Source of the DNA: Mugil cephalus
Taxonomy: Eukaryota; Chordata; Actinopteri; Mugiliformes; Mugilidae
Length of the DNA stretch: 64,000 nucleotides
Assembly: GCF_022458985.1 (NCBI RefSeq)
Contig: NC_061773.1
Coordinates: forward strand, 4,284,001-4,348,000
Direction: 5' to 3'
Of this stretch, positions 2,180 to 63,129 are shown in pieces. The translations under genes and the position numbers were made by a program. Position 1 is the first letter of the stretch; the number at the start of each line of letters is the position of its first letter. The notes under the pieces were generated by a model. It searched no databases, had not been told where the DNA came from, and saw nothing but the letters and a program-made list of their open reading frames with translations.

Positions 2180-2354
2180 GACTGAGGCCAAGAACTGAAA
2201 CCCAACCTCAACGTCGTTCTTACGGCTGCATCCGTTCATCTCTTCTCCACCCTTTGCTTCTTCCACTTCTCTCTGTTCCTGCCCTCATCTCTCGCTATCT
2301 CTCTCTTTCTTTCTCTCTCCACCCCCACCCCCCTCCCGGCCCTCAGCCTCCCTG
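2180..2354 (+). other. slc6a17: probable 5' UTR part of slc6a17 first coding exon
   Basis: The run of T with a pyrimidine-rich stretch ending in GATGCAG at 2179 looks like a 3' splice site. From there the sequence is pyrimidine-rich (CTCTCT and CCCC stretches) with no intervening splice signal until the ATG at 2355. The 5' UTR is therefore probably split, with its upstream exon outside or unrecognised in 1-2179. This is inference from splice signals only. Confidence 0.45.
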
Positions 2355-5300: not shown

Positions 5301-5871
5301 TATATTTCAATCACATTGTTCATTCACAACACAGTTTAATCTTTTACCTACAATTAGCTGAGAAAAACAAACTCGACAACAGTACCCACTCATTGTATAG
5401 TTACCTTTTGTACTTACAGTCATCCTGCGTAGTTGTAGACATCAGAGGCTGTCTATGTTCACTACACACTTTAGTGATATACTCCTTTTGTATTCTGTGT
5501 TGTGATATGTTGTAGTAGAAGTAGTCAGAGTAGTAAAAGTGTCACATTTGCCATAAAATGCTTCTTCTTTTTTTTTCAGGTGCTTATCTGGTTCCTTACT
5601 TCATCCTCCTCCTCATCATCGGCATCCCTCTGTTCTTCCTGGAGCTGGCGGTGGGTCAGAAGATCCGACGTGGGAGCATCGGGGTCTGGAACTACGTCTG
5701 CCCCCGTCTGGGCGGGATAGGGATGTCCAGTCTGATGGTAAGAGAGGGGTATTCTGAATATTCACGCCTGGAACAACTGTCACTGAATGAGTTTTCTTTA
5801 AAACCAACGCGGGCCCTTAGCCCACTCCTTAGCCCACTCTGATAAGAGACAGGGAGGTTGTGATGTGGGAA

Positions 5872-5928
<57 letters not shown>

Positions 5929-6214
5929 GGGGGCACTGACGTGTGTGAGAGTGAGAGGTAGCCCTTCTTTATAGTCGCTCAGCTGGTGGAGAAATAGCTA
6001 AAAATACCCCATAGAAGATCACAGTTGAAAAGAGAGCACTTTAATTATTCATGCTTTCCTCAGCCCTATTTAGCTTGTGAGCGTCCTTGCTGGCAAGACC
6101 ACTCAGAAAACTGACAGCGGTGGAGGGGGGGACATGCACAAAGCACGGCGTCTCATTTCCATAGTTTTCACACTCTGTGCAGAGTCTAGCTGTGAAACTG
6201 ACATAATACATTTA

Positions 6215-6281
<67 letters not shown>

Positions 6282-12200: not shown

Positions 12201-12390
12201 CAAGCCTGGTGAGGCGCCGTCATCAGTGGCGGCACGTAGACCCTTCCTGGCTCCTGGAGGGAATAAACCCACGGACCCCAACTCCCTGTCCCCAAACATC
12301 TGCTATGGCACAAGCTACCAAAACGCAGCCATTAGCCCCACCACTCCGACTACACCGACCACGCCCGTAACACCAGAGTCTGACTCTTGA
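2355..12390 (+). CDS. slc6a17: sodium-dependent neutral amino acid transporter SLC6A17 (NTT4/XT1)
   Basis: Synaptic-vesicle transporter of the Na+-coupled SLC6 (LeuT-fold) family that loads neutral amino acids such as proline, glycine and leucine. Coding exons: 2355-2637, 5580-5737, 6291-6417, 8156-8337, 8422-8532, 8612-8853, 10040-10232, 10312-10504, 10770-10929, 11069-11231, 11983-12390. All have GT-AG borders with agreeing phase, and they sum to 2220 nt (739 aa; the human protein is about 727). The start [11 protein letters not shown] and the TM1 motif [20 protein letters not shown] are diagnostic for NTT4. The large extracellular loop 4 typical of the amino-acid branch (exons 6-7, with an NFS glycosylation sequon) is present, as is NGT in loop 2. 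The cytosolic tail, rich in threonine and proline, diverges from mammals. No frameshift or missing exon was found. SLC6A15 and SLC6A16 are the nearest alternatives, but the N-terminus favours SLC6A17. Confidence 0.96.
4863..5208 (+). mobile_element. short inverted-terminus DNA element, copy A
   Basis: In slc6a17 intron 1. It starts ACACCAATCAGGCATAAC and ends with the approximate reverse complement (GGTCATAATGTTGTGGCTCA followed by CTGTGTAT). It is one of five similar copies in this window, in the same orientation as copies B and C. No intact reading frame remains. The termini and size suggest a non-autonomous DNA transposon; the superfamily is not assigned. Confidence 0.75.
5871..5928. repeat. 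(ATCT)n microsatellite
   Basis: About 14 perfect ATCT units lie in slc6a17 intron 2, about 130 bases after the donor at 5738. Confidence 0.95.
6219..6280 (+). repeat. (TG)31 tract at the 3' splice site of slc6a17 coding exon 3
   Basis: Thirty-one uninterrupted TG units end ten bases before the exon at 6291 and are followed by ATCCATGCAG. The tract occupies the place normally held by the polypyrimidine tract. In RNA this is a long UG repeat, the preferred target of TDP-43-type proteins. Confidence 0.95.
10511..10538. repeat. (CCA)n trinucleotide run in intron
   Basis: A CCACCACC run starts six bases after the slc6a17 donor at 10505. It reads as polyhistidine in one frame, but it lies outside the spliced coding sequence. 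Confidence 0.85.
11252..11573 (+). mobile_element. short inverted-terminus DNA element, copy B
   Basis: Same family and orientation as copy A, with a start of ACACCAATCAGGCATAACAT and an end of GGTCATAATGTTATGCTTGATTC. It begins only 20 bases after the donor of slc6a17 exon 10 (GTCAGT at 11232). The donor is not disrupted, but the insertion sits unusually close to an exon. Confidence 0.75.
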
Positions 12391-18391: not shown

Positions 18392-21300
18392 CTAGTGTGC
18401 AGTCAAATCACAGATCCTGATGCAGCACTTCTCTCCGAGCCAGAAGCCTGGATACAGTGGCTCTGTGAATTTGGTTTCAAGCTTGTAAAGAAACTTCATG
18501 CTGTTTGACACTTCGTAGAAACACAAAGTGCCCTGTTTAAATTTAAGATACACCCCGATCCTGCAGTGGCTGGGGGATGCCGTGAGCTGGACGCTGTGAG
18601 TGTTGTGGCTCACAGAGTAGTATTTTGAGCGATCCAGACTCCAGGAATGTACGTTGCCCCCAAAAGCGGACAGTTTAGAGCGAGACTTTCTGTCCATTCC
18701 TTTATAGGCGAGCGCAATCTCTACTTTATCTCCCTTCACCTCTACCTCATAGTAGCAGCGCTCGGCCTCCAGTCCCTCCCTGCACAGCACCTGCTGTCGA
18801 TGCATGAACCTCTGCGGGGAGCGGAGAGCTGGAGTGTTACATTTCTGATTGCTCTGCATCACCTCTTTGGCTCCTTCAGAAATAATCAGGTTCTCGTGAG
18901 CTGTTGTGCAGTCCAGAGAAAGCTTGCATGCATCTGAGATAAAGAAGACCAAGGTTAAAATCATTTAATTTAGGAATAAAACTGTAGTCGCATGAATAAA
19001 CTTACATTGCAGAAACTCTTCTCTGGTTTTAGGCTCTTCCACTGGATTATTGGCAACTCCAGAGGAACCTAAAACACATCAAGAGAACATTTTTAAGTGT
19101 CACTGACGAAAACAAGGATTCAATTCTAGCATAGTCCCAGGAAACCAGCACTCGGACCATGGAACACAAAAAATGCGCTGGGAACTTGGGGAAAAAAATC
19201 ATTAAAAACTGTTGGATTTGCTCAGCTTCTGTTGGAGAGGCATCCAGGGACAGTTAAACAAAGACACAGCTTTATGTGGTTTCATAAGCAGCCTCTCTTC
19301 TACAGTAGCGTGCCTGTAACCAGGAACTGTCTGACAGGACGGCACACCCGTGGACACCTGTCACACAGAAGTCTATAATTACAAAGAAACAAGGTCTGGT
19401 GCTACTCTCTCATCCATCTTTGCCGAAGAAGAATGTATAAAATCCCAGATCATTCAGAGAACAGTTTGAGACACAAACCCGGCGACAGTGAAATACATGC
19501 TTCACCTCTTCACTGCACGTCATCCTCATCTTTTTCTCCTGCTGTGAAAAGCGCCAGCAAAGACACATACCGGTTTGGGTGACTGAAGCAAACTCTTCGT
19601 CACAGAATTCCTCCAGCCGCTTCCTGAGCTTTTCAACAGCTTCCTTTGTGGACTGAAAGGGGAGCAGTGGATCCTCACCAACGCAACTGACGAGGTCTGT
19701 TTCACAGAGGAGCTTCAGAGAACTCCATTTCTGTCAAGAGAGCAGAGACATTTGAATGGAGAGATGATTCGTCGAACTGGATTCATGGAATGTTTCCAGT
19801 CATGTGATGGTTGTACCCGCAGGAAGTCGACATTGTTTTCAGTCTGAGCCAGAGAGGCCAGCTCAGCTTCCCTCTTCTTCATCGCCGCCATCTTGTCCTG
19901 GTGAGTCTGCAGACGAACCTGAGCTTCGGCCGCCTCTTGCTGAGCCCTAATCATCTTTCTCACAGATTCAAAATGTCTCTGGAGGGAATCAATGACATTG
20001 ACTATGGCGGCTTCACAGTCATCCTCTGTTTGTGTGGCTGCCTCCTGCATTACGTCATATGTCAGTGGGATCAGTAAATCTGGTATATACAGTGCAATAT
20101 AAACAAAGTATGGCTCTCTGGTGCTGTCCTCACCTCAATCTCTTTGAGCACCATCCCCTTGTTCTCCTCTTTCCCTTCTAGATTCTGAAGAATCTGCCTG
20201 ATTTTCATCTGCATCGTCTTTATCTCCTCCTTCAGTTGGATTGACAAACACAACATTTACTGAGATGTGATTTGGAAGCAGAATAAGAACAATAGCATTA
20301 AAAAAGCACTGATATTATTCCGTACGTCTGGCCTCTCTGTGCTATACTCCATAACATTATGACCACTGACAGCTGATTATCTCATTATCAGTGAGTGAGA
20401 CATATAGCGCAGCATGAGTATGAGTATATTTTGTTCCCAAAGTTGCTGCATAAGCAGGAAAAACAAACAAGCGGACAATTGCTCACATACACCAATCAGG
20501 CACAACATTATGACCACCTTCTTAACATAGTGTACGTCACTCTTGTGACTCATCAAAGCATGGACATGGGCCTTCTGAGGGTGTCAATGTTAGTGGGGTC
20601 CAATGTGTTGAGAGGATGATCATCCTACAGATACTTAATCAGTTTGGGATCTAGTGAATTTGGAGACCAGGTCAACACCTTGTGCTGTTTTTCATGTTTT
20701 GTTTTTTAGTTGTTCCTAAACAGTTTTATGTGTGCGTCTATGTCAGGCTGCATCCTGCTGGGGATGAATGCTGCCATCAAGGAGTGTCACTGCTATGGGG
20801 TGGGTGCTACATGTCTAAGTAACATCCACATGAATGAATACCAGGTCCAAAAGTCTCCCAACAGAACTATGAATTGTCACAAGATGGTCAATGTTATTTA
20901 CTTATCCTGTCAGGGGTCACAATGTTGTGGCTGATCAGTGGAGTTCTGAGCTCAGTGATTAATGAAAAAAGTTTTTTTCTTTTTAAAATACATATAAATA
21001 ATAATAATAAAAAACATATGATCAGCCTAAAACGTGTTAAAGTCTTATAATTAGTCTCACACACCTGTTTCCTCCTCCGCTCCTCTATCACCACACCAAA
21101 GCTGTGCCCGCCGTGTTGAGCTGTGGCGCACAACTGGCAGATGATCAGCTCATCCGTGTAGCAGTAGACATCCAGAGGACAGTTGTGTGTCGAGCACAAA
21201 GCCTTCCTCGGTCCCGCTGGGCTCTGCTGGGAGTCCTCCGACGTCTTCCTTCTCTTACTGGCACAAACGGACTCCCTCACCACCTCCGCCAGAGTTGTGT

Positions 21301-21529
21301 TTCTGATCAGCTGCGGTCTGGAGGGAAACTGTCGGCGGCATTCAGGGCAGCGGTAGGAATGGTTGAACCTCGCGTCGAGGTCAAAACACCGCTGGATGCA
21401 ACACGTGCAGAAGTTGTGTCCGCAGGGTATGGTTGCGGGGTCTCTGAGGAGCCGTTTGCAGATGGGACAGCACAGGTGGTTCGTCCTCACAGATACGTGA
21501 GACTCTGCCATGACCGTCCGCGTCGACAT
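18392..21529 (-). CDS. TRIM-family RING E3 ubiquitin ligase (RING, B-box, coiled coil, PRY-SPRY)
   Basis: Six exons, transcribed leftward: 21065-21529, 20134-20229, 19817-20044, 19571-19730, 19006-19068, 18392-18933. They total 1554 nt (517 aa) with agreeing phases. Exon 1 holds a RING finger (CxxC at residues 21-24, then CGHNFC and CPEC) and a B-box 2 with CSTH, CQLC and HGGH. The second exon is exactly 96 bp, the usual size of the first coiled-coil exon in TRIM genes, which fixes its acceptor at AAG|GAG. The third exon (228 bp) continues the coiled coil (QEAAEAQVRLQTHQ). The last exon encodes a full PRY-SPRY ending PGFWLGEKCCIRICDLTAH. Resemblance is to fish TRIM25/TRIM16-like and finTRIM proteins, many of which act in antiviral signalling. 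I cannot assign one-to-one orthology, so no symbol is given. A second in-frame Met at residue 7 is an alternative start. Confidence 0.9.
20489..20940 (+). mobile_element. short inverted-terminus DNA element, copy C
   Basis: Inside the first intron of the TRIM gene, in the same orientation as copies A and B. It starts ACACCAATCAGGCACAACAT and ends GGTCACAATGTTGTGGCTGA then TCAGTG. It retains an internal segment that copies A and B lack (about 20740-20830), shared with copy E. A further solo terminus (CATAACATTATGACCACTGA) lies at about 20350-20370. Confidence 0.75.
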
Positions 21530-21947
21530 TACTTTGGGTTCCTGTTTCTGTTTCCTGAGCCAAAGTCCTTTATGTGGTGGTTTCTTGATGTCAGGGTGGG
21601 TGTGACTAAAATATTTGAATTGAAAACATGACGGTTTTTTGTTGTTGTTGTTGATTCATTCATGTTTCAGACACGCCCTGCGATCATAGTACTGACTCCT
21701 TAAACATGAATGCACCTTCAGATCTTTTTCAGATTGTCATAAACACCTTGAATAAACCAGCAGGTAGCTTGTTTCTATCTTCTCTTCTAATGAGACAACT
21801 GGAGAACTCATCTAAAGTTATGAAGTTATCAACACGTTATTACTCAATACAAGGGCAACTGTTGAAGCGCTGAACATTTGAAGTGATTGTTGTTGCTGTT
21901 GTTAGCTAAACTCACATCCTGTCGAGGCCTATACCCACAACCCATAT

Positions 21948-24386: not shown

Positions 24387-25229
24387 TCACTGTAGCAGTT
24401 CTTCCCAGGAAATAGGTTTGGAGAAGACCTCGCGCTCCAGCCACAGGTCATAGTTCATTTGGAAGTCCTCCGGCAGGTCCACTCTCTGTCCCAGAACACT
24501 TTGCAGGCAGTTGTCCACAGGCAGGAAGTCTGGGTTGCTCTGGCTCTTGTCGTAGCGACGGCTGTTGAAGCGTTCGATGTTGGCCCGCAGAGCGCACTCC
24601 TCCGCCTGGAAGTCCCAGGGACGAGCATCCAGATCTGCTCCCAGAAAAAAAAAATAATATGTAATGGATTGGTTTAGTTTAAGGAATTATTAAGCTTCAA
24701 TAAAAACATGTAGTACAAATTATAAACCAGATGATACAAAAATCATCTATGATTGTTGAAGACAAAACCCTCAAAACCAGTCCTGTCAGGCAGCACTGAT
24801 CCACTTTCATTAAAGCATACATGTTTATAAGCTGTCTTAAAATATACTGACAGTGAAATCATTTTAAAATGTGGATTACCACAGCAAGAATAAGGGTCTG
24901 GCTACTACATGCTAGTATATCACTGGATGAACATGTTCAAGCTCCAGGATTTGGTTGATGAAAAATGAACAGCTTTGTGTTCTCTCACCGTTTCCATATG
25001 CCCAGTCGTCATTGAGGCGATGTCGGACTTTCTGATAGATGGCAGACATGGTCTTCATGTTGCTCTTCCTCCACTGACGCCCCAGGTATTTTGTCTGCAC
25101 TTTAAGCAGTTTGAGGACGTACAGCTGCATCATGGCCTGCTTCACCTTCAGCGCCCTCTTCAGGATGGGAGCCGACTTAAACACAACCAGCATCTGGTGG
25201 AGGAAAGATCATTGTTTACCCCCACACCA

Positions 25230-25274
<45 letters not shown>

Positions 25275-28200
25275 ATTCACATAAATACACACACGACTCA
25301 TCTATCATGTCATTTAAATGCTCTCACCATGGTCCTGGAGTGCTTCCACTTGGTCAGTTTGTTGAGGATCCTCAGGAGGTTAATACAGGAGAACAGATTC
25401 CTCCAACAAAACTGATTGTTGTCTCCTGCTTCCTGTAACAAAAATCACCCACCATTAACATTCAACAGTCAATACGACATTAATGATGACAACTGATGAA
25501 CAAAAGACAAGAGAAATATGAAAACTCACCAAACTCTCAGCAGTCAACTCTGGGAGTTCATGCACCACACAATATGGAAAGTCAAGGACTGAAATGCTGT
25601 TGAGGAGAGAACGTTGAAAACAGTGACACAAAAGCAATGGTGTTCACTATGAATAGAAAAGATGGTTTTATTCTTTGAACACGTACCTATTCTTAGCTGT
25701 GATGTAAGACATGATGTTCTGGTTGAAGAACTTCAGAATGAGTGGGATGCAGTTGGCAAACACCAGATGTTGAGCCATGTACTCAAACTATAAAAATGCA
25801 CAAAAACAACATATTCAGTCAGAGTCAGAGAGGACAGCTTCCTCAGATCTAAGGGATGTTGAAAAAAAGAGAGATTTTCTTTCTGTTCATGTAACAGGGT
25901 GTAAACGAGTGTGTGGTCAAGGCACCTGGTAGATGTGGTTAAGTTTGAAGTGCTTCAGAAGCAGCAGCAGGATGGCAGAGATGGCTTTCACAATGATCTC
26001 TTTGTGCCGATTAACATCGACGCCAAGCTTCATGCTCTGCAACACTGTGGTTCTGCAGAGTCAGACAGAAGAAATCAGCACGTCTTCAGCTACTTCACGA
26101 GCTTTATCAGGTTCTAACATAGTTCTGCTTGATAATTCTGATTAATGCTCTATTCCCCTAAATCAAAGCCCATTTCCTTGCATTTCTACGATCAGCATGT
26201 GATGCTGCACTGAATGAGGAGCAGGCTGTTAAATCCACTTACGGCATCTCCTCAGGCAGCACGTCTGCCAGGATGTTAATGGAGTCCGTTTTGGCCTTGG
26301 ACGTTGGAGCCGCAGCGAGCAGGATCTTCAGCAAAGCAATCTAACGTTCAGGAGAGACGCATCGTGATTCGATGTTGTCAGTTTGACGAGACAGTGAAGA
26401 TCAGCAGTTGATGTCTGAGCTGTAATCAACTGTGACTATTGACATTAGTAAAGATCCTTAATGTCTCACTGATGCTACAGTTTTCTTCTTTTCGTTCTGT
26501 CTACTTGTTCATCTACTGGTCCATGAACCAGAATTAAAACAGCACAATAAGGCAGTGTTAGAAACATAGATTATATTTCACTCTGATTCAAGGAGTAACC
26601 TCACAAAATATCTCATAATGTTGCATTCATGTTCAAAGAGTAATCAAAGCATGGCAGGGAGAGAGAAAGCTCTGACATGCCCTGAGCAGTACACTTTCAG
26701 CTTTCATGCGGCCAAAATTTAGAAAATAATAATAATAATAATAAAAAAACTTTTTTCAAGAAATCAAGGAGATAACTGCATCGAAAATGTAGAATAAGGC
26801 AGCAAGTGTGGGTGTGGGATTTATTCCTGTATGAACACCATGTTCAGTTTGATCTATGTGCTGAGGATTTGTACATGGCTGCTGCTGCCAGACACTTGAG
26901 AAGATGAAGTGGTCCTGCAGCAGAACCTCATAAAGCATCTGCTCATACTAACCATGTATTGAGGCAAACTGGGCAGAATTCCCTGATAGAGCAGCTCAGT
27001 GGCAGACATCTCCACTTCCTCTTCACCCTGACGACAAGGAATCACAAACACAAACAGTTTCAAACCTTCAAGGTGTGCCTTCCACAGACAGAAAGGTAAA
27101 CCTTATACTTTGTCTCATTCATAACTAATTATTAAAGCAAATGAGTTTTGTGTAGACTTACACCAGACAAAGGGGTTTTCTGAAATTCCTCCTCCTTTGT
27201 AACTTGTATTTCAGCTATAGAAACGTACTTGTGCTGAAAATTGTAATGTAGAAATGTCAGAAATGTAATAAATTAGCACACAGCTTTCCAGAATAACTCA
27301 TCAATTAATAAAGTACCGTGCAAAGTGTCGTAATACCTGCTTTAGTGTTTTGATGCTCTCATGAATCGGCCGGGGTAAACCAACCACCGTGTCTGTATCG
27401 CTGAAAGGCATGCACAAAATACTTTAACACATTACCTCAGCACATATATATATATATAAAACAATGAGAGGTACTTGGGGTCTGTTCAGTCACTACATGT
27501 CACAGCCAACTGAAAGGAAACTCACCTTCCAAGTGTGTAACCGATGAATTTACTTCGACTTGATTCCAGAAAATTTTCTATATCTTTTTCCCTGTTGGAG
27601 AACAATTCAAAAACCCAATTATTATTTCCATTTTGTGTACTTGAAGACTTGGCAAAAAAATCCACTCTAAATTTTTATTACAGTAACATAAAAATATGAA
27701 ACATTTTCTCTAAACTAGGAGTGAGTGCAAACAGAGCATCACTGACTGAACGGTACCTGACTTTAGGAGCCCAGGGCAGACCCTTGGGGAAGGACACCCT
27801 CTCTGACGGAGGGTGAGGAATAGGTGGTGGCATCACCTCGTCCCTCTCTAGAGGGAAAGTCTCTGTCTCTATAGAATTGTCGTTATCATCATTGTCATCC
27901 TCATCTTCACGGGAGTCATCAGCCTTGTAAGGATCCTTTTCGTTGAACGCGTCCAGGTTGTCCTGTTTGATCAGCGCCTGTGTGACAAATGTTAGAGAGA
28001 TTGACATTGACGTGACGCTGCAGGAGGAGGAGAACTGTGGCAGGGACAGATAATAAGGCCTTAGAAAGATGGATAAATGCACACTTAGAGGCACCTAACA
28101 GTAGAAATTGGGCATGACTATGCAGTATGGATGCATACTGCCTAAATGAAGCAACAAATAAAAAGTTGTTCCACTTAAAAATTAAAGCATTAACCTCCAG

Positions 28201-31200
28201 TTAGACTTTGCACTGGTATATTGCACAAGTAAACCTTATTATGATTAGATACATTTAGCAGTTTTAGGGCAAAAATAATATGATAACAGCACAGTGTCCT
28301 AACAGCAATATACTGCACACATACACTGATCAGGCCAAACATTATGACCACTGACAGGAGAAGAGAATAACATCAACCATCTTGTAATAATGTTCTGCTG
28401 GGAAACTTTTGGACCTGGTATTCATTCACATGGATGTTACTTAGACATGCAGCACCAACCTAGACCAGACCAGACCCCCCACCCCATAACAATGACACTC
28501 CTTGATGGCAGCAGCCATCCCCAGCAGAATGCAGCCTGACACAGATCCAAATGGTTTAAAAAGGCAACTGGACTCTGCAAGTCCACACAGACACACACAC
28601 AAAAACAGTGGGAACGACTCAAAAAGCATGAAGAACAGCAACAAGGTGTTGACTTGGCCTCAAAATTGACTCTCAAACTGATCAAGTGTCTGTGGGATGA
28701 TCCACAGAGGCCCCTCCCCTCAACTCATAGGACCCAAAGACCCCCACTAACAACATCCTGTTACCAGACACCACAGGACACACTCAGAAGACCCATGTCC
28801 ATTCTCTAATGAATCACAACTGTTCTGGAGGCACAAGGGAGACCAACACAATGTTAGGAAGGTGGTCATAATGTTAAGGATGATCGGTGTATACGTCATC
28901 ATTGAGAGTCACAGCTGACAGGGTTTCTTTTGGACCAGTGCCGTGTACCTTGTGTTCGCGGCGGGCTCGTTTCTGTTGCTGCTCTATGAGGTCGGATGCA
29001 GAAGCAGGAGGTGAAGCTGCCCTCATGCTGCGAATGACTCTGATGCTGTCCTCCGGGAGAGGAGGAAGACCCAGCTCAACACGCTTATGGACCTTTATGC
29101 TCTGGAGCTGCTCGAACCCTCCGAGTGTGAACTGAAACAGAGAGAAGGGAGGATTTCAATACATCGTGGTCTCCCAGAATTTGTGTGAATTACCGTCATT
29201 TCCATCTCTCACCAGAACGCTCTTCCACAACAGCAGTAACACCTTCTTCATGGGGAAGTGCGGGGCATGACCACTGCAGAACTTTGTAACCATGCCAAAG
29301 AGCATGACGGAAATTGGTTCGTTGTTGAACAGAGGAGATCCTGGGTGAGGGAGGTGGAATTAGTTTACATAGCACATTTTGTACCCACGATATAAATGCA
29401 GTCATTCTGGTGGAATTTACCCAGCTCTGCTCTGAAGGTCTCCCTGATGATTTTCCATTCAGGCTTGTCAGCGGGGTCGTCCTGCTGGATCGTTTCCACC
29501 ATCAGGTACATTATGTTAAGCAGCACCCTCAGATCTGTGCTATCAGCCAGGGAGATGGCTGGTTTCCTGACTGCACTGCTGCAGGCTGCACTGTTGCTGA
29601 AAAGCAGACAATGTGTCACATAATATTAGATTCTCCACACAGAACATTCGACCAACATCAAATTAACTTAAAGCCTTGCAGAGCCAACCAACCTTTTTGT
29701 TTTTCTGCTGTAATGTTACCAGGCTTATTGAAACTAATTGAAGGCTTATTTTATTCATTGGTTCAGATTCAGAACAAGTGCTAATCAAAGTCTACAGCAT
29801 CTTAAATGTCTTTTACTTTCCAGAATAATATTTTGCATCAAAAACAATAAGCTACACTGTTTTGAAATTCAAATACACTCAAACAGGGCTTGGAAACTAA
29901 TGAAGAACTTACTCAATCTCCATGTTGAGCAGTTCCACCAGAGCAGAGAAGGTCCCCACATCAAGCAACAGAAATATGTTATATCTCATCCAGTGCTGAA
30001 CCTCGGCCTCACAGCTGCACTCTGCAAACGTCCCTGGAGAGAAAAAGACACGTACAGATGTGAAGTATAACAGGATGAATAAAAGTATCCTTACTGATGA
30101 CAAACATCTAATTCTGTTTCATTTAATTCGATGTGGACTGACCCTGAGCCATGTAGAGAATGGCTCTAGCAACCTTCAGCCTCCTGTCTCGGGCGATGAC
30201 TTCCAGACTGTCCAACAGACGCATGGCGTGAGCTCTGTGCTGAGCTGCATCCAGCTCCGTCCACTTCTTATCAGACACTAAGGCACAGGACACAGTAGTA
30301 GGTGTAATAAACTAATGTACATTTAATTAGTTTAAATGCATATGTTTAACTACCCACCATGAGTTTTGAATTCATCCTCAAAGCACCTTCTGTTCAGAGA
30401 AAACTCTGGTCCTTCAGTGTAACTGTACAGCTCTGGATAAAATACAGAAAAAACAAATCTATAAATACTCCACGCACACGCATACCTACCTATGACTAGG
30501 TGAGAGGGTTGAAAAGAATGACACATTTCTAAGGGCTCGGTCACCATGACAACGACACATACCTGACAGCTCTGCTGCCCACTTGTCTGTGTCCGAATAT
30601 TCAAACTCGAGGTCTGGAGACTCAGACAGTCCCTGTGCACAACACACGAGAAAAATCAGGGATTAGAAACTAACAGATATTTTTCTCACTTAGCAGTGAC
30701 TGAAACCGCAGTCGATTAAATATTGATTGTGAATGGGTTGCAAATAAATCAAACGTTTGTGGTTGTAAATTAACCTTGGTAAACCACTACACATGCAGTT
30801 GGTAATGTGTAGAGAACATATGTATTTATTAAAAAACATTACGCTGAAGTTTTGATGGCAAATTTTGTACTTGAAATGTGATACTGAGGAGAAATATGCA
30901 CTATGAATCTAAATGAAATGCAGCAGCAGAGAATAGGGAAACCAAAACACTTGAAAACATGTGCTGACATGTGCTGATGCATCAAACTGATTTGGTTAAA
31001 GAGAAAAAACACAATATTTTGGTTTGCAATGTTTGGAATGAGAAGATTTCCATAAATACTGCAATTATTCAATTTTGAAGAACTATTTTTTCTTATTTGT
31101 CATCACCGTAATTACATTTAATGTGCTGAACTTGACTTCACTCCATTTATTATTGGCTTGCTTATCTGCCGTTTCTGATTTTTGTACAGTACATCACAAC

Positions 31201-36000: not shown

Positions 36001-46013
<10,013 letters not shown>

Positions 46014-48169
46014 GTTGGCCGTGGCTGTCAAAACGTTACCTGGACACAAACACCAACAACAGCCAAATACGACAAGTCGACGTCACAGGCTAACGTCGTC
46101 GAGGTTCCTCGCGCTGATAACGGAAGAGAGGCGCTAAGATTGCGTTCACGTAAAACTATTTATAAACGTGATATTTAACTAGTGACTGTGTGTGCTCGAC
46201 TTTAAATGCCGTTAAGTAATCTGGTTGTGCAGAGAGCTGCCGTGCTGTCTCCCTGCTGGCTCAGCTGTCACCTGGCTGAGTAACTTTGTGGGCGTTAACC
46301 AACAGACTGACGAGGCGTCACGCAATAAGCTGCGTTCACTGTTAGTGGGACAATAAACCATAACCAACGACAACATTCCACCACGCGTTAGTTTGTTGCG
46401 TCCATTAATATCATCTTAATTAATTATCATTTGTAACATAACATTTACTGAACGAAAGCAAACAATGTATAGCTTTGTTTCAATTTCCTGTTATGTTCTC
46501 ATTTTGTTTCCTGATATTAACAGGAAGTGAGTGGAGCAACTTGAAGTACTTGCACTAATTTGCATAATATGCCGTTTTGGCAGTGAATACTCTGCATTGT
46601 ACTAACAGGAAGTTATGCACGATACCTATCATCACATCAAACTGTGATTCCGGGAAATTATTGACGGTTTCCTTGCACATTAAGAAAAAAAAAACCAAAC
46701 CGGCACTTCCTTGAATTATAATATATGACACCCTCCATGCAGACTTGTCACCATCGAGCACAACTCATTTCACATTTCAAATCAATTTTCACATGTGGAG
46801 AATACACCTTGAGATTTGTGAGTGAGATATCTTTTGTATTTGCAAGTTGGAGTGACGGTGACACAAAAAAGCAGTCAGCTCCCACTTGTTCAAACGTGCA
46901 GAAACTCTATTCAAATTGTATCTAAGCCATAACATTGTCTAACATTCCCCAATCTGTTAATTGTGCACCAATCAACCAAATCTAGAAATTTGTCGTTCAG
47001 TTTGTTTTAACTTTTTTTGTGTAAATGTACGAATACCTTTGTGTCAGTGACATTCAACCAAGGTTGATGGCCATTTTAAACCCTATTGCTTGCTGTGCCA
47101 TACATTGGAAGGATCTGAAAACATGATGTGTGGCCGTCAGTGTAAAACCTGACTGAAAGTAGTGTAAAGCATGCTAAGGTAGGCTCCTCGAAACCCTATG
47201 CATACATTTAAAGCAGGTCAAAATGATTACTCAAGCTGAACTGTAATCAATGCAGGGGTAACTTTTTAGTGGGAAACACCAACTATGTCTGAAAAGCATG
47301 AGTGATGATGTGGGTGCAGCAAAAGACAAAAAAAGCAAGACTGATCAGGACAAATTATACGTTTGGATAAAAGAGACATATGTGATAGTATGAGTGGATC
47401 TCTCACAGATCTTCAATTGCATTTAGCTGATCTTGCTCAATACAAGTTTCTTTATCCTACACCATCACAACTGAGTTTTCAAATTTTCAACGAACAGGGT
47501 GAAATAATTATGTAAATTAGCAAGTACTGTGGAGTTCTATCCTAATTTTATCTTAATATTATTCAATTCCTCTGTGCAGTATCTTATCTCTTCCTAGGAC
47601 GGCATTCTTCTGGCTTCAGGTGTTGTTCCTGGGATCTGATGGAGCCACTCTCCCAGTATGGAGCTCACTACCACGGGGGACACGCTCTTCTTAACCTTAG
47701 CCAACGCTAGCCAAATTTCAAATACATACTACTTTACTACTGTCAATAAAATTGACAGTAGTAACATTTTATGTTTGCTTAATTGAGTTTATATTGTATT
47801 TAGGTTACCTGTTTATTTAGAGATTAGTTAAATGTTAGGTTTGCGTTTATAAAATGGACGGTAAATTGCATGTTATTTTATCCAATAATGGAAATAAACT
47901 CGAAGCAGACAAAAATGTAGAAACAGCGCCACATTACATTTACTCCTACGTTGTGGTTAGAGATGGTATCGCAGGTTTACGTGATTACGTCGGAATGTGC
48001 ATCCGCTAATACTTCCCGGTTCAGCTCTGCAGGTGTGAGGTTCAGAATAAAAACATTTAACTGACTCAAATAACAGTTTTTAACAATTTGCGCGATATCT
48101 ATCGCAAGACCGTTGAATTTAAATGGTAAAGGCGGGAGGGATTAATTATTGAAATTACACACACATAGC
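46014..48169. other. divergent intergenic region between ahcyl1 and srsf3
   Basis: About 2.1 kb between the ahcyl1 start (minus) and the srsf3 first exon (plus). The ahcyl1-proximal 300 bases contain clustered CpG and an ETS-like CGGAAG, in keeping with a promoter. The middle is AT-rich with no gene. I see no exon signals that belong to a further gene. Confidence 0.5.
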
Positions 48170-48320: not shown

Positions 48321-49079
48321 GTAAGGTTTGGTCATAATACTCAATGCCGAATCGTGCATGATTTATTTCTCTTAACAAAATGTCGAGTTCGGGTCGATTT
48401 ATTGTGTGAACCCACGCGTTTGTCGGGTTGTTTAATTTCCCTGAGTTGTAGCCGTTGGCTAACACTAGGCCTCGAGAAGGAGACAGCCATTTTAGCAATT
48501 CTTAAAACACCGCTGGCTCTCATTTTCTCCGAAACATTGTCAAATGTGAGGCTGGAAAATACAGATTTAACATGGAATTGTTGTAAAGTTTACGTTTAAC
48601 AAAAAACTAATCCCCAGAAACGAAGTTGGGAGTTAGCTTTATCTCCCATGCTTTACATTTTTGTGTAGCTAATGCAAAGTTAGCATAGGCTGCTACTCCG
48701 ACGGGAAAGTAGGCCACGCAATTTTTGTTTGCCAAACATTTTAAAGGAGTGATAATAGAGGGAGCCCTGAGATCTATAAATTGTCTTTTTAATGTTGCAT
48801 TAGGTTAGTAACAGAACATGGACTCGTATAATATTTTAGATTTGTCTTTAAACTGTAAGCTATTGTACTGAGTGCAAATTTTAACAGTGATACCCACTAT
48901 TACACCACACGCCCGACAGGTTTGGTTTTAAGTACTGGTACAAGTTTGTGAATATTTGGGCAACAGCAGTGTATTGCTTAATGAAGAGGGAAAGTGCGAC
49001 CAGTCTTTGACTGTAACTTGTGAACTCTCACTAGCATCTCTAACCAATCCTCTCTCTTTGTTGTTCTTTAGATACAGTC

Positions 49080-52000
49080 ATGCACCGTGACTGCCCCCTA
49101 GACTGCAAGGTCTACGTTGGAAATCTGGGCAACAATGGAAACAAAACAGAGTTGGAGAGGGCCTTTGGCTACTACGGTCCTCTCCGTAGTGTTTGGGTGG
49201 CCAGGAACCCCCCAGGTTTTGCTTTTGTAGAGTTTGAAGATCCGAGAGATGCAACTGATGCAGTGCGGGAACTCGATGGAAGGTATGTCGCATCCTAAAC
49301 CAGTGCAGAGGTTCAGCAGTCGGAGAAGGAGAGACGGGATAAGTCTCGCACAGTGGTTAATGATTACTGATTGTTTTTTTTAGGACGTTGTGTGGTTGCC
49401 GGGTGCGCGTGGAGCTGTCCAATGGCGAGAAGCGCAGCCGCACCCGCGGTGCTCCCCCTTCGTGGAGCAGGCGTCCTCGAGACCGAGACGATTACAGACG
49501 CCGTAGCCCACCAGCCAGGCGAAGGTGACTTACATGTTGTCGTTTGTTGGTGACCAGTAGAGAGAAACGTTTGATCTGTCTTTTACTTAAGTTCTGCTCT
49601 GGGATTGACTAATTCTACATTTTTATCCATTGTATATTTCCTGGTAACTGGTTATGAGTTTCCAGTATAGGCATTTAAAAAGTTGTTTTTCCTGCTGATT
49701 ATACATGATTTGTGACTGTTGCAGTGTCTAAGGCTTGCAGATTCATCTTCATTGACATTACTGGTCATTTTTTGTAAGTAGTCAAACGATTAGACCTCCA
49801 TACCCAAATAATGAACTGTGGAAATAGGGCATTACACGAGGTCATCTGGGGATGGGGGACATCCAAATTGTGGCCTGCAAGACCTTACTTTAGGTTCCAA
49901 TACTTCTTTGAAGTGTGAACTTCTGTGCACTCTTGACTGCTTTACATTGGCAGAATAGGCATGTTAAACAGGCTTAGGTTGTGTCGGGTAAAAAGTATTA
50001 CCTGTTTAAAGTATGGGGGGATGAAAGTGCCAAATGTGATGCATTTTCTTTTTGTTTGAGGATGCTTTTTATTTTTCATCTATATTAATAAGAATGAAAC
50101 CCGTTGCAGAGCCACCACCATGCCTCTACTCACCACCCTCAATCAACTAGTCCTCTTTCAGCATCATGTGACTGCTGATCAACGAGCCCAAATCAGCTTG
50201 GCTGGTGCTGTCACATGACCCAGGCATGGCCAGTCGTCAGGTTGCACCAGCCCATTGGTTCCTCAGCATGCCGTTCTCAACCTCCTCCTCCTTCAACCTT
50301 AACCCAAAAGGCAGCGGCCCACCTCACATTCCCGACCAATCAGCGTATTACGTTCCCAAATGTCTACAACCTACCAGCAGCAGCCTTCGGCTAACCAATT
50401 AAAGCAGGAAAAAAGCCACTGCCAGCCCCCATCTGCCAGCCACCTAATCACCTTGCAGCATCTGGCCAGTCCTATTCAGCCAATTCTACCTACCCGGCCG
50501 ACAGTCTGCCTCCTTTTCGTCATATCTAGCTTGTTGAAAACCAAAAATACTAGTAAGTTTTCCTGCTTCATTCAGTACACTGCTGATTACAGTTTTGAAA
50601 GTGAAGAGACAGCTGGTTTGCAAAGGTTGTTCTTTTTCTATTATTTGGATCATAAGTTTGTCATTTTGTCGTCCACCATTTCTGTAGTCCTTGTTTCAAA
50701 GGGGAATGGTCCAACATCAAATATCTGGAACTTCATTTTTCCAGAGATTTTGATGATAGATAATCATCTGGTATGTCTTGGGGCTCTGAGCAGAATAATG
50801 AATTCACACAAATCAAAACTCTTCTCAACCCCCCTCTATGAATATCAGATCTTTTTTTTCTTTGCTGGTTTTAGGAGATCTTAGCCTGGTTGTTTTTCAG
50901 GACTAGTTCCTTGTGACAAATCTATTGGGGTTTGATAGTAGCCTCCATTTCTGTATGGCCCCCACTTTAAAGTGTAGTGGACCAGTTCTATACAGATGGT
51001 GGCCCTTGTGTGTTTGAGTTACTCATACCAGGGGCCAGTCCACAGTACGATGTTTTAATCTTCTGCCAGAGGAAATGCTGCTACTTGGCTCATTTTTGGT
51101 TTTCTAAAAAGCCGCTTAAATGTTAATTGTTGGTCACGACCCGCTCTGCCACGTAAGGTGGAGTATAATCTACGCTGACTTAAAAGATGCACATGGTACT
51201 GTGGGATAGGTGAGAGGTGACACCTTATCACCTACCATCTTTATGTGCCAAGTCCATTGGCTTACGTTTTCTGGTTGAGATAAGTTTTCCCGGAAAAGTC
51301 TTTTACTTCCTTTTTGAGTCAGTGAGTTAGACAAAGGGCCGTGCTGAGGGAGCCCAGTGTAAGAACGAGTACAATAATGTGGAGCTCTACAGCGTGATCA
51401 TTGCATCTGTCTTCTTTCTTAACGTGTTGTATTTTCCTTGTGCAGATCCCCACGCAGGAGGAGCTTCAGCCGCAGCCGCAGCAGGTACGGTAGCTTTCCA
51501 GTTCAATCTTTGTACGTAGAAGAGATGGAATGGCTGTTTTTTTTTTTTTGTTTTGTTTTTTTTTTTTTGTTTTGATAATCGCTTACCTTGATGATAAACG
51601 GTTTATGAACATATCTTAAAGAATAGGTTCTGTACATTGGTAATTTCACAGTTACAAAAGAAACGTAATTGGTATATTAAACATTTGGCAGGTTTTATTT
51701 TGTTTTTAAGTTGCAATGTTCCTATTTCAGGTCTTTCTCCAGAGACAGGAGGAGAGAGAGGTCCCTCTCCCGAGACAGGAACCATAAACCGTCAAGATCC
51801 TTCTCCCGATCAATGAGGTACTGATATTTCTTAAAACTATTTGATCAAAATGAAAACTGCTGCAGGTCTGCCAAGATGAAAAAAAAAAAAACTACTGGTC
51901 AGTAACTATTGACACCTAGAAGCCACTGAGGCCCTTTAGCAACCAAGGCATGTGAAAGGATGAAAGGATGTTTTTGCTTATTGTAAAATTACAAAATGAC

Positions 52001-52281
52001 ACTATATTGACTTAGCTGCACACTCCTGCCATTTCTGCAGTTTCAGTATTTTGACCTTAGAGGAAATTTCCACTTGCAAGGTTGTAAATAGCCCAAGAGG
52101 GTGTAAATCCTGTGGCCTATTTAGAAAATGTTGAACATGGACCCATTTAAAGGCAGCGTAAAACATGTTTGAGGATGATATTGCTTTGCCCAAATTACAG
52201 TTCTTGGTAATAGTTGAAGGCATTAACAGTTGGGGTTTTGTTTTGTTCCACAGTCGCTCCAGGTCTAACGACAGAAAGTAG
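49080..52281 (+). CDS. srsf3: serine/arginine-rich splicing factor 3 (SRp20)
   Basis: Nuclear SR protein controlling splice-site choice, mRNA export and 3' end formation. Coding exons of the full-length form: 49080-49282, 49384-49524, 51446-51484, 51731-51817, 52254-52281. They total 498 nt (165 aa; the human protein has 164). The RRM (residues about 9-84) carries RNP2 KVYVGNLG and RNP1 [12 protein letters not shown]; the RS domain follows from about residue 86 and ends SRSNDRK. The N-terminus lacks one Ser present in mammals (MHRDCPLD). The protein is otherwise almost identical to human, so the gene is certain. Whether it is the a or b fish paralog cannot be told here. A poison exon lies in the intron at 49525-51445. 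The 5' UTR is split (donor 48321, acceptor 49071). Confidence 0.97.
50110..50552 (+). other. srsf3: srsf3 poison cassette exon (alternative, NMD-inducing)
   Basis: Acceptor CCGTTGCAG at 50109 and strong donor GTAAGT at 50553 delimit a 443-nt exon in the third coding intron. Its size and place match the autoregulated alternative exon 4 of mammalian SRSF3. Spliced to exon 49384-49524 (phase 2), it reads 35 codons and then an in-frame TGA at 50216-50218, far upstream of the last junction. Inclusion should therefore trigger nonsense-mediated decay. The body is C/A-rich with repeated CCAAT-like and CAGC-type words, unlike the flanking AT-rich intron. Confidence 0.8.
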
Positions 52282-52925
52282 GAGAAAGTCTGTCAGGACA
52301 AAAGGGAGCTGAAGATGAACGGTTTGCCCGGGCTTTGCCGTTTCATACGTTGGACTTCAACATGGCCCTGTGGTCATTTGTTTTTCTGTTTTGTTTTTTT
52401 TAATCATGCATTTTAGTGTCCCTCCCCTTTTCTTGTCATGGTAATTTTCAGTTACAGTGACCGGGCGCATACAGGTGTGAAGCCTCACCTGTGCCTCCTG
52501 ATCCACATCTGTGTTGTTGATTCTGGGACAGTTGTGCTTCCCAGCATTCCAGTTCACCATTAAGTCTATTTGCGTTCCGGTTTTTGTCAATGAATGTATT
52601 GTGTAGTTCAACTTTGTGTGAGTAGTAGTAGTTGCTCATTTTCACTGTGTAAATGCCAGCATTGTTTTAAAAGAAAGGAATCCCCTCCCTCTGTCTGTAA
52701 AGCCAACCTATTTTCAACTTTCTTCATACTGAAGGTTTCCATCTGTTTATAAAGGAAAAAAACACCCCCATTCAAGATGCAGAACAGTGGCATTGATTAG
52801 AAAAAAACAAACAAAAGCGGTGTAATGAACAGAAGTCTAATTTTTGATTTTGAATTTTGCCATTATTTTTACTTTGTTTGATACTCTGTGAAATTGTCTT
52901 TCAATTAAAAATACTGGTTGGTTTA
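52282..52925 (+). other. srsf3: srsf3 3' UTR
   Basis: It continues from the TAG without further splice signals to an ATTAAA poly(A) signal at 52904-52909. A pyrimidine/T-rich stretch lies around 52380-52440. The end near 52925 is inferred. Confidence 0.65.
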
Positions 52926-54560: not shown

Positions 54561-56875
54561 ATGAAACAGCAAAACTTTGACTAATCACTCAGTTTAACAT
54601 CCAGGCATGATATGTGTTTGCTTGTTGACGTATAATATAAAATAAAACTCCAAATCAACAATTTTACATTGGGAAAATCTGTTTAAGTAACAAATATAAG
54701 GTGATTTCATTTCAGATTCAGTTTAGATTTCTGGGCACATTTACAGCTCATCACAGAGATTAAATAAATAAATAAATGTAATCATGATGAAATAAAGAAA
54801 TGTGGACAATTCCGCTTTCATTTACATACATATTTGACATATTTATTCATATTTAAACAACCGGCTACCGTAATAAATGTTGTAGTCTGGGCTCAACATT
54901 TCTTTTTTCTCATTCATAAAACATTAAAATTGGGGACATTTTTGGAGATAGCTTTAATCAGGGGACAGGTCATCCAAAACAGGGACAGTCCCCAGTCATC
55001 AGGGACGTCTGGTCACTCTAAACAAATATTACTCTTCTCTCTGTCCTTAAAAATGTCTGTTTTAAATGTATTTCTGTGTATTTGTGGTTGACGTTAAGTA
55101 ATGACCATGTGCATCCCTTCTAATATTGATAATTCAATGCATGTCACAAACAAGAAATGCTGTAAAACTGATTTGTGAGAATAACAATGAGTTCAGTGTA
55201 CTTCCACGCCAGTCAACAGATCTACAGGGGTGTTCCAGCACGACTTTTTCTGAGCATGGAGCACTGACTCTTCGCCTTACAATAGAACAAGGAGACCTAA
55301 GACACTGAAATCAGATGAAATTCAATGCATGAAAGGCAGTGTGAATAATGGAACTGTTAAAACTCTAACACGTGATTTTACAACTTGAGCAACTATTTGT
55401 GACAATACCCATGTCAGATGTAGCTATTATGTTTACAACGTCCTCCTCTAGGAATCTGTGTAGTGCAGTCCCCCGCCAGAAGAAATCAGAATGTTATATA
55501 ACCATATAGGTAATAAATCTGCAAACAGCGGGACTCTCCAGATGAATGATTAACAACATAAAACGTGTCTTTGCTTCATTTGGCGCCATCTACCCGATCA
55601 AAGTTTTCGCAGTGGACGCGGAACAGAAGCTTGAATACGACAGTTTGATGGATCCGCAGTCCCTCTGCTCTGTGCAGCTGCTTCAGAACTGGGTGATTAT
55701 AAAGTGTCTACTCAGCTGTATAAATGTAAAAGCTTTCGCTGGAGCAAACAGCTGCTGCTCAGTCTCAAACTGCATTTTGCTCCGTTTTGTTCATTAACTT
55801 CACTGCATACCTCCAGTGGATGTAACTATGCTGTACAGTTGATTGACTCTTTGTCAGTAACATCCAAGTCTGAGTGTGCCTCTCTTGTGTCCCTTTAGTC
55901 AAACACTTAACAAAGCACTCATTGTGGTGTCACTTCAGTTGGGCCTTTGTACACGGCATCCTACAGCTGGGGCTCTTGTTGTTGATGTGCTGGGAACTAG
56001 GCTGAAGGGCAGCGGGATGGTGTTGGAAAGCCTGGGGAGTTTTTGTGACCGACTCGTTGTCAGAATAAACAGGCCTGGCCCTAGTAACGACAAGAGTGGG
56101 TGGAAAAACAAAGGGGAAGCAGTGCATATGTGTGTATCAGAAGGACTACAAATCAGAAGAGAAAACTACAAAACTGTCAGCAGTTAAAAACGTGATTGAT
56201 GTTTAGCAGAACCCCACTGGGCATGTTGTTACAGCCATATGAAGGACAGACCGTTGTCACACAGATATTCAGAGGCATGTCGATGTCCTAAGGCATGAGT
56301 TATACAGACGAAACATAAACCTTAGGAGAATAGAATAAAACAAAAAAATTAAGCTTGGATCCAAGTGCAGGTGAACAAGCTGCATTTGGAACTCTGCAAT
56401 CACAATCACATAACTATAAAAAGTAGAAGTGGATATCTTGCAAAGCGTGACATCAGTGACTATGTTTTTGTGTGTGGTTTATTTGCAGATTTCTGTTGTA
56501 GTAGATCAGAACAGATCTAATTCAACTTTACTGTCATTAAACATGTTTTAGTACTCCAGAAGTGCAGAGCATGTACATGTGTACAGATATAGTCTATATA
56601 TGGATACAATTTAAATTAAAACAGACTGTATTCAAGTGTACACAATGGCTTAGACATCAGGATATGTTCACATATTAGAGCAGGGTATTTACAGTATAGA
56701 ACCATGACAACACATCTCATACTGGAGAAACATTTCCATGTGTCATATGTGTCTTAGTTTATTGTATGGTAGCATGTCAATATAATCTACTCTTATGTCA
56801 GTATTTAGCGTTATTTTTATAAACTCAGTCTTAGATATGTGCATGGACCGTAGTCACATCGTAGCAGACTTGACC

Positions 56876-57773
56876 CCCACCAGTTTGCCTGCAGAGCAAA
56901 GCGATCCACAGAGGACACCATAGCCACAGCCCTCTATGCTGCAGTGTCACACCTGGAGCAGCGGGGGAGCTATGTGCAGATGCTCCTTGTGGATTATAGC
57001 TCTGCATTCAACGCCATCCTCCCTCATAAGCTACTGGTCAAACTGGGGGACACGGGACTTCCAAGAGCGACCTGCAGGGTTAACAACCTTAACACTTCAC
57101 TAACCAAAGAACTCATCATAGACTACGGAAACAGAGTTTCCACCATTAATCATCAACGGGGACTGTGTGGAGAAGGTGGCAGACTTCCGTTTCCTGGGAG
57201 TCCACATAGAGGGGGGCTATTCCTGGAGCGTGAACACCTCTGATCTGCTGGGAAAGGCCCAGCAGAGACTGTACTTCTTGAGAATACTCGGGAGAAACAA
57301 CATCACTCAAAGACTGCTGGTGTCCTTTTATGGTGCCACCATCTAAAACATACTGACACACTACATGTGTGCATGGTACACCAGCTGCACGGTGGTTCAG
57401 TGGAAAGCTCTTCAGAGGTTCTTCAACACCACCCAAAAGGTCGTTGGCTGCCCTCTCCCAACACTGGAAGAGTTACCCAGCTCCTGTTGTCTCAAGGAAG
57501 CACAGCACATCATTAAGATCACCCACCATCCCGGTCACTACCTGTTCAAACTGTTGCCTTCAGGTACGGTATAGGTGACTTGGGTGTGTTATGTATGCCA
57601 CCAATGTTTTTTTTTTTTTTTTTTACTAATGTTTGTTTCTATGCACTGTTTGATGCACTGTTTGGAGAGCATTTTTAATTTAGTTGTACTTGTGACAATG
57701 ACAATAAAGTTCTATTCTATTCTATTCTATTCTATTCTATTCTATTCTATTCTATTCTATTCTATTCTATTCT
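56876..57773 (+). mobile_element. truncated LINE retrotransposon with (TTCTA)n tail
   Basis: Reverse-transcriptase remains read QFACRAKRSTEDTIATAL, then SYVQMLLVDYSSAFNAILPH. Further 3' there are pieces resembling the region after the catalytic domain (TKELIIDYGNR; YTSCTVVQWKALQRFFNTTQ). The copy is 5'-truncated, lacks most of the catalytic centre through an internal deletion, and is frameshifted. It ends with a poly(A)-signal-like ATAAAG and a TTCTA pentamer tail (57710-57773). The type is L2/CR1/Rex1-like; the family is not fixed. Confidence 0.8.
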
Positions 57774-62270: not shown

Positions 62271-62552
62271 GGCTGCCCACTGACATCAGGCAGTTAGTTC
62301 AGGAGGTTCAAAGCGATCGCAACGATGGTAAGCATGAGCTGTAGTTTTATGTTTAAATGGAAGTGCGGAGGGGTATTTAAAAGATTATTGTCATGTTTGA
62401 GAATAAATTTGGTGTCGGGATTTTTGCATCTTTAATTTGTGCATCGGGTGTATTTATTGAGTAAAATGCTCGACAGAGGTAAAATCTGAGGACTCGTCAA
62501 CTTTTCCCTGGTAACTAGATGTCTTCTCTCTGTTTCCTTTTAGTGCAGAGTA

Positions 62553-63129
62553 ATGGCTTCTCACAAGCGGATCCTGAGCTGCCTGGGGAACGGGCCGGCC
62601 CGACGAAACCTGTTCGGCCCCGTGGACCGGGAGCAGCTGCAGGCGGAGTACCGGGCCGCCCTGCACAAAGACTTGGAGGAGGCGTCGGAGCGCTGGGGCT
62701 TCGACTTCATGTCGGACAAGCCCCTGGAGAGCAGTGATTTCCAGTGGGAGGGCGTCCAAGGCGCCAGGGTGCCGCTGCTCTACAGGTCCTGCGTGCTTGA
62801 CCCCAGAGGGGTGGAAGGTCCGAAGGCTGCGGAGGCGACGGCTGCTCCCAAGGCAGGGAGGAGTGAGAAGGAGAACATCCCTTGTATGCCGGAGAGGTGT
62901 GCTGTCAAGGCCGAGGCCCTGGAGAAAACGCCGGAGAAAAGAGGGCACACAGGGTTGAAGAGGAAACAGACAAACCTCACAGGTATGTGCCGTGACTCTG
63001 CCCACTTCTTATTTCATGTCACATTGCACTGATCTAGATTTACAGTTTTTTTTTTCCTTTTATTTTTGAACAGATTTCTATCAGGCCAAAAAAAGAGTGG
63101 TCGGGACGCCGCGCAAATCCGGCCAGTGA
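62553..63129 (+). CDS. cdkn1a: cyclin-dependent kinase inhibitor 1A (p21/Cip1)
   Basis: Inhibitor of cyclin-CDK complexes and of PCNA, acting in the nucleus downstream of p53. Coding exons 62553-62982 and 63074-63129 give 161 aa (the human protein has 164). The CDI domain is clear: cyclin-binding RRNLFGPVD, then EASERWGFDF and PLESSDFQWEGV. Near the C-terminus a PIP box (QTNLTDFY, residues 139-146) is followed by AKKR, giving the PCNA-dependent degron pattern. The basic KRK before it can serve nuclear import. The middle (ATAAPKAGRSEKENIP) is variable. The 5' UTR exon (to 62327) ends in an ATG that is in frame after splicing to 62544 and would add MCRV; I prefer the internal MASHKR start. The gene order srsf3-cdkn1a supports orthology. 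Confidence 0.95.

Follow-up and report, generated by a model that had tools for sequence, protein, structure and literature searches.

Positions 50110–50552 of the DNA analysed here hold, with a probability that we put at about 0.88, the fish equivalent of exon 4, the poison exon of mammalian SRSF3, together with the feedback in which SRSF3 protein raises inclusion of the exon and inclusion sends the mRNA to nonsense-mediated decay (NMD). Whilst this kind of exon is already known, what is new is that its stop codon has been relocated and that neither of the two srsf3 copies in the genome has lost the exon. The window, as the whole 64-kb stretch is called below, is positions 4284001–4348000 of contig C4, plus strand, from a genome of 634.8 Mb in 24 contigs; the genes present suggest a teleost.

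The srsf3 locus and its neighbours

The window contains an srsf3 gene, the reading frame of which begins at ATG 49080 and encodes an RRM (Pfam RRM_1, 3.5e-17). The spliced protein is 165 aa long and possesses a single RRM and an RS tail, and because the zinc knuckle is absent from it the gene was assigned to srsf3 and not to srsf7. An SRSF7 identity was rejected, as the zinc knuckle missing here is present at two other loci, the srsf7-like genes at C2:30229580–30229768 (−) and C9:2469870–2470052 (−). The coding exons are as follows, some with the basis for the assignment in brackets.

49072..49282, plus strand: exon with the start codon (ATG 49080) and the bulk of the RRM (translation, Pfam RRM_1, acceptor)
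49384..49524, plus strand: coding exon 5' of the poison exon, ending in phase 2, AG/A (translation)
51446..51484, plus strand: RS domain exon after the poison exon, with an in-frame junction if the poison exon is skipped
51731..51817, plus strand: further RS-domain exon
52254..52282, plus strand: coding portion of the last coding exon, to the normal stop of the 165-aa protein (end read from the sequence)

On the 3' side of srsf3, a Pfam CDI match at 62544–63032 marks a gene for a cyclin-dependent kinase inhibitor, which we read as cdkn1a, a neighbour of SRSF3 in mammals too. Pfam searches with gene pieces also placed a sodium:neurotransmitter symporter, a DUF3402 protein and an S-adenosylhomocysteine-hydrolase-like gene, at window positions 2199–12390 (+), 24387–30655 (−) and 36218–46082 (−), respectively; by eye the second of these resembles STRIP1 and the third AHCYL1. 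The human counterparts of these three lie on chromosome 1 and SRSF3 lies on chromosome 6, and their linkage with srsf3 here may be ancestral or rearranged. A TRIM-like gene at 18392–21655 (−) was recognized from PRY/SPRY domains (Pfam) together with a RING finger and B-box seen by eye, and frames at 56854–57472 resemble, also by eye, a reverse-transcriptase fragment of a LINE-type element.

Borders, reading frame and premature stop

50110..50552, plus strand: the 443-nt poison exon, a homologue of exon 4 in human SRSF3
50216..50218, plus strand: first in-frame stop, TGA, exon nt 107–109 (translation; a TGA has the same position and frame in the second srsf3 copy)
50553..50558, plus strand: donor GTAAGT of the poison exon

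The acceptor AG of the poison exon ends at 50109, and the exon length of 443 nt is no multiple of three, so that inclusion shifts the frame, whereas skipping joins 49524 to 51446 in frame. When the exon is included (49080–49282, 49384–49524 and 50110–50552 translated together), the first stop reached is TGA 50216, giving a product of 150 aa. These positions of acceptor, exon, donor, stop and junction partners are those given in the preliminary description, and all of them held. A stop is a candidate for NMD when it lies more than about 50–55 nt before a junction; this TGA precedes the 3' end of the exon by 334 nt, with three more coding-exon junctions downstream.

The presence of a stop was rejected as evidence in itself, since an in-frame stop also turned up in 992 of the 1000 mononucleotide shuffles made from the exon, which makes an in-frame stop alone weak evidence. 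It is homology, to fragments of human exon 4 and to the second srsf3 copy, that raises the exon above chance.

Homology to human SRSF3 exon 4

In human, exon 4 measures 456 nt and yields a truncated product of 124 aa (PMC10321290), and it was compared here by means of four printed fragments that amount to 92 nt. The first 34 nt were obtained from an antisense oligonucleotide that spans the junction of exons 3 and 4 (PMC10592454), combined with a reverse primer (PMC11193772); they end in the human stop (RVTIMSLLTTL-stop), with which an antibody peptide agrees (PMC10592454). Placed without gaps on both strands of the 64 kb, this fragment has its best position at 50110, with 27/34 identities and a runner-up of 21, and upstream of the human stop the match is 27/31. 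The gapped scores of the exon-start fragment and of primer oGJH759 (PMC4586487) both exceed those of all 500 control windows. The match of oGJH151 is weak, with 4 of 500 control windows scoring as high, and that of oGJH153 is at chance level (14/500), so that two of the four human fragments are clear, one is weak and one is at chance.

50196..50217, plus strand: site aligned with oGJH759, a primer in human exon 4; a run of 12 identical nt is followed by a 2-nt gap and one mismatch (exon nt 87–108)
50517..50533, plus strand: counterpart of the human PTBP1/2 splicing-suppressor (pull-down) oligo, 14/17, from exon nt 408; equalled by 4 of 500 control windows

The intron position, behind the second coding exon of the RRM region, and phase (AG/A) are the same as in human, where the antisense oligonucleotide crosses the same junction in the same phase (PMC10592454). 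The preliminary description had the exon matching its mammalian counterpart in size and location: the location agrees, but the size does so approximately (443 nt, against 489 in the second copy and 456 in human). The alignment to the human exon that it proposed did reveal homology, from 92 printed nt of 456.

The second srsf3 copy and the pattern of conservation

C4:5880878..5881366, minus strand: poison exon of the second srsf3 copy, 489 nt
50144..50215, plus strand: core block, exon nt 35–106, 67/72 identical to the second copy and lying 3' of the second copy's stop

A second srsf3 gene, encoding 168 aa, is found 1.55 Mb away on the opposite strand of the same genome, with its 489-nt exon at the homologous place. 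A search of the ∼635-Mb genome with the window exon retrieved this copy with E = 2.1e-56, and as the two candidates scored were the exon itself and the second copy, there are no further copies in the genome by this search. Together with the human exon 4 fragments, this match confirms the earlier claim that an srsf3 poison exon has been kept in this fish.

Both srsf3 copies are on one chromosome (C4:4333080, plus strand, and C4:5882404–5882601, minus strand), not on two. The second adjoins an FKBP5-like gene, named by eye from its open reading frames, and the window copy adjoins the cdkn1a-like gene. Just 3' of the second copy, at C4:5862610–5878623 (−), are long repetitive open frames of 1135, 768, 557 and 737 codons, and a SGIDDATE-type unit recurs in the first three of these (1135, 768 and 557 codons).

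Comparison of the two srsf3 regions by blastn (E ≤ 1e-3) gave six matches, of which four fall on coding exons and the other two on the poison exon, this being the only non-coding stretch aligned. Conserved non-coding DNA can be an enhancer, and a conserved DNA element of such a kind, exon-like in looks only, could in principle account for the similarity. This is very improbable, given that the conservation coincides with the exon borders, the matches beginning 27 nt before the acceptor and finishing 7 nt past the donor, and that an exon known to be spliced in mammals agrees with it in splice sites, in size and in position.

Within the exon, 321 of 440 alignment columns are identical between the copies and 52 are gap columns. 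The conservation is blocky, with a diverged and length-variable middle, and just one of the eight indels is a multiple of three, the other seven breaking the frame. An ultraconserved element is defined as over 200 bp with 100% identity between human, mouse and rat (PMC4064129), and the human and coelacanth exons are 91.92% identical in a passage that includes no teleost (PMC10321290). The term ultraconserved, applied to the mammalian exon in the preliminary description, fits mammals but fails when extended to this fish, with 321/440 columns identical between the copies and 27/34 nt shared with human at the exon start.

Synonymous sites of the two copies differ by 57–66% (pS 0.57–0.66) and are near-saturated, and dS is 1.59 for the complete CDS, 1.34 for its RRM part and 1.08 for a 177-nt segment, on which the srsf7 pair gives 1.49. 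This suggests that the srsf3 duplication is old, its age being bracketed by dS of about 1.1–1.6.

Beyond the srsf3 pair, blastn between the two srsf7-like genes (9.9 kb against 9.9 kb, E ≤ 1e-4) found two stretches of the RRM region and no shared poison exon, and the srsf3 exons had no convincing match in the 9.9 kb at either srsf7-like gene (best E 0.15). An exact 31-nt pattern from the core block had no matches in the genome contigs collection and none in the viral contigs, and those collections therefore supply no additional vertebrate copies. Relatives of the RRM exon in the viral contigs were limited to two distant loci, one with 34% identity and the other matching over 11 residues, which were set aside.

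Probable turnover of the stop codon

50141..50143, plus strand: site at which human has its in-frame stop, exon nt 32–34; AAT here

The window copy does not carry its stop at the mammalian position, as exon nt 32–34 read AAT and the TGA is 75 nt further in. Its in-frame stops are TGA at nt 107 and TAA at nt 191, and those of the second copy are TGA at nt 26 and at nt 107. With gaps allowed, the human TGA at nt 32 aligns with the first TGA of the second copy, at nt 26–28. The number of complete exon codons before the stop is 10 in human, 8 in the second copy and 35 in the window copy, with truncated products of 124, 126 and 150 aa. Judged from these alignments, TGA 50216 is a different stop from the mammalian one. 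The simplest reading would be that the early stop is ancestral and was lost in the window copy, where the later TGA took over. Aligned with the second copy, the window exon can be read as having lost the stop through a 6-nt in-frame deletion, though this is one reading among others.

The core block lies 3' of the stop in the second copy and 5' of it in the window copy, and coding therefore cannot explain its conservation in both. It might be argued, as has been proposed for the human truncated form, SRSF3-TR, that the truncated protein is itself the selected product and that the exon serves as an alternative C-terminal coding exon, given that SRSF3-TR is translated and detectable under impaired NMD (PMC10592454) and that the window frame stays open over 35 exon codons. 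The three tails are, however, unequal in length, the best-conserved block of the second copy is behind its stop, seven of eight indels break the frame and the mRNA would still be a candidate for NMD, all of which leaves us with very little belief in selection on the protein. With differing stops and one in-frame indel in eight, selection looks to have acted on the RNA and not on the truncated peptide or the position of its stop, and from its pattern of conservation the exon looks like a constrained untranslated RNA segment. The earlier proposal that conservation of this exon implies selection at the RNA level is hence supported by the core block, the frame-breaking indels and the shifted stop. 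No description of a moved stop in a teleost srsf3 exon was found in the literature searched, from which subscription journals would be missed.

Splicing signals, motifs and RNA folding

50083..50109, plus strand: acceptor region of the poison exon, the stretch of intron over which blastn still aligned the two copies (ATTAATAA...CCCGTTGCAG)
50164..50218, plus strand: predicted hairpin with a 9-bp outer stem, TCATGTGAC/GTCACATGA (z −1.14)

The poison exons of both copies combine a GTAAGT donor with an acceptor poor in pyrimidines. In the window copy pyrimidines make up 6 of 17 positions at −20 to −4, compared with 12–15 at five further acceptors of the gene that were measured; the second copy has 8/17, and ten other acceptors across both genes have 10–15. 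The donor of the coding exon 5' of the poison exon (49525–49530) is GTGACT, off the donor consensus GTRAGT, and in the second copy it is GTATGC.

The exon is C-rich and G-poor, with a C-over-G skew above that of all 6356 overlapping 443-nt windows on both strands. In mammals SRSF3 can be crosslinked to the exon of its own gene, has a preference for CU-rich, G-free sites and raises inclusion (PMC3439968; PMC4586487), and the skew fits this CLIP motif. Counts of SRSF3-like motifs in the window exon are no higher than composition predicts, with 15 CWWC against 13.5 in dinucleotide shuffles (76/200 at least as high) and 44 CHHC against 41.2 (63/200). The second copy alone exceeds its shuffles, for both motifs (2/200 each).

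PTBP1/2 repress the mammalian exon through UUUCU (PMC4586487). The core of this silencer, near the 3' end of the exon, is altered in the window copy, which has UAUCU at 50523–50527 where the second copy and human have UUUCU. Two hnRNP L motifs of human exon 4 (PMC6885243) were sought in both copies and found in neither.

The altered silencer core, the motif enrichment confined to the second copy and the loss of the ancestral stop (AAT at nt 32–34) are what would be expected if the window exon were a decaying relic, little used, with autoregulation left to the second copy. Such decay is improbable, though somewhat less so than the other two alternatives weighed above, because the core block is 67/72 identical despite near-saturated synonymous sites, the AG and GTAAGT are intact and an in-frame stop has been kept; a dead exon would not remain 93% identical there while the introns turned unalignable.

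The idea that conservation reflects a special RNA fold was rejected for now. The fold of the whole exon is ordinary (z −0.15), and the predicted hairpin is not significant, with 28 of 200 shuffles folding at least as well; as its outer arms are identical in both copies, covariation cannot be asked of it.

Proposed mechanism and its meaning

In mammals, exon-4 mRNA rises on UPF1 knockdown or cycloheximide treatment (PMC4586487), and by analogy SRSF3-promoted inclusion, NMD and negative feedback are likely in this fish too. The weak acceptor would keep the poison exon mostly skipped, until SRSF3 protein becomes plentiful and, by binding to the exon, favours its inclusion. This would bring in the premature stop and send the mRNA to NMD, and SRSF3 would fall back. 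The early stop, apparently ancestral, seems to be lost from the window copy, in which the TGA 75 nt beyond the human position would do the job, so that the decay outcome is retained while the truncated reading frame has changed.

A further possibility, which we regard as rather doubtful, is that the two copies have divided the feedback loop between them, both keeping an SRSF3-responsive core, with the window copy, through loss of the early stop and of the PTBP silencer core, less sensitive to PTB, making a different product and answering to different inputs. If this were true, a poison exon could exchange its stop for one on the other side of its best-conserved RNA block with function kept. 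The pair offers a natural test of what selection sees in a poison exon, as one duplicate has the old stop and the other a later one. The RNA between the two stops is 93% identical, which argues for selection on RNA sequence and decay outcome, and against selection on the position of the stop or on the truncated SRSF3 protein, the function of which is debated in human. Stop turnover is therefore a useful natural experiment, and the gene pair is open to direct assay.

Comparison with known systems

In the sister SR gene SRSF7, the mouse poison exon is bound by SRSF3, over-expression of which raises inclusion in a minigene (PMC3439968). Unlike SRSF7, the window gene lacks the zinc knuckle, and its exon has no convincing match at the srsf7-like genes of this genome (best E 0.15).

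Zebrafish srsf3a provides a possible likeness at the level of the gene and not of the exon, its RNA being up in smg9 mutants (PMC11133409) and, of two EJC mutants, in one at least (PMC7310861), in passages that do not resolve the exon. The same holds for reports of alternative splicing of fish srsf3 genes in response to cold, heat or salinity (PMC7093569, PMC8869236).

The second copy shares with the window exon its borders, pyrimidine-poor acceptor, GTAAGT donor, C-richness, core block and in-frame TGA at nt 107. It differs in its length of 489 nt, in the TGA at nt 26–28 aligned with the human stop and in the UUUCU core, and its gene, unlike the window gene, has a further exon upstream that supplies an N-terminal extension (MGDPSFN).

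From exon 4 of human SRSF3 the window exon differs in its first stop (nt 107 vs nt 32) and truncated reading frame (150 vs 124 aa), in its altered PTBP1 silencer core and absent hnRNP L motifs, and in not being ultraconserved along its length. The exon nevertheless shares with human and mouse SRSF3 (SRp20) exon 4 its gene, intron position, phase (AG/A), in-frame stop and frame shift, as well as a similar size (443 vs 456 nt), a homologous start and an internal block.
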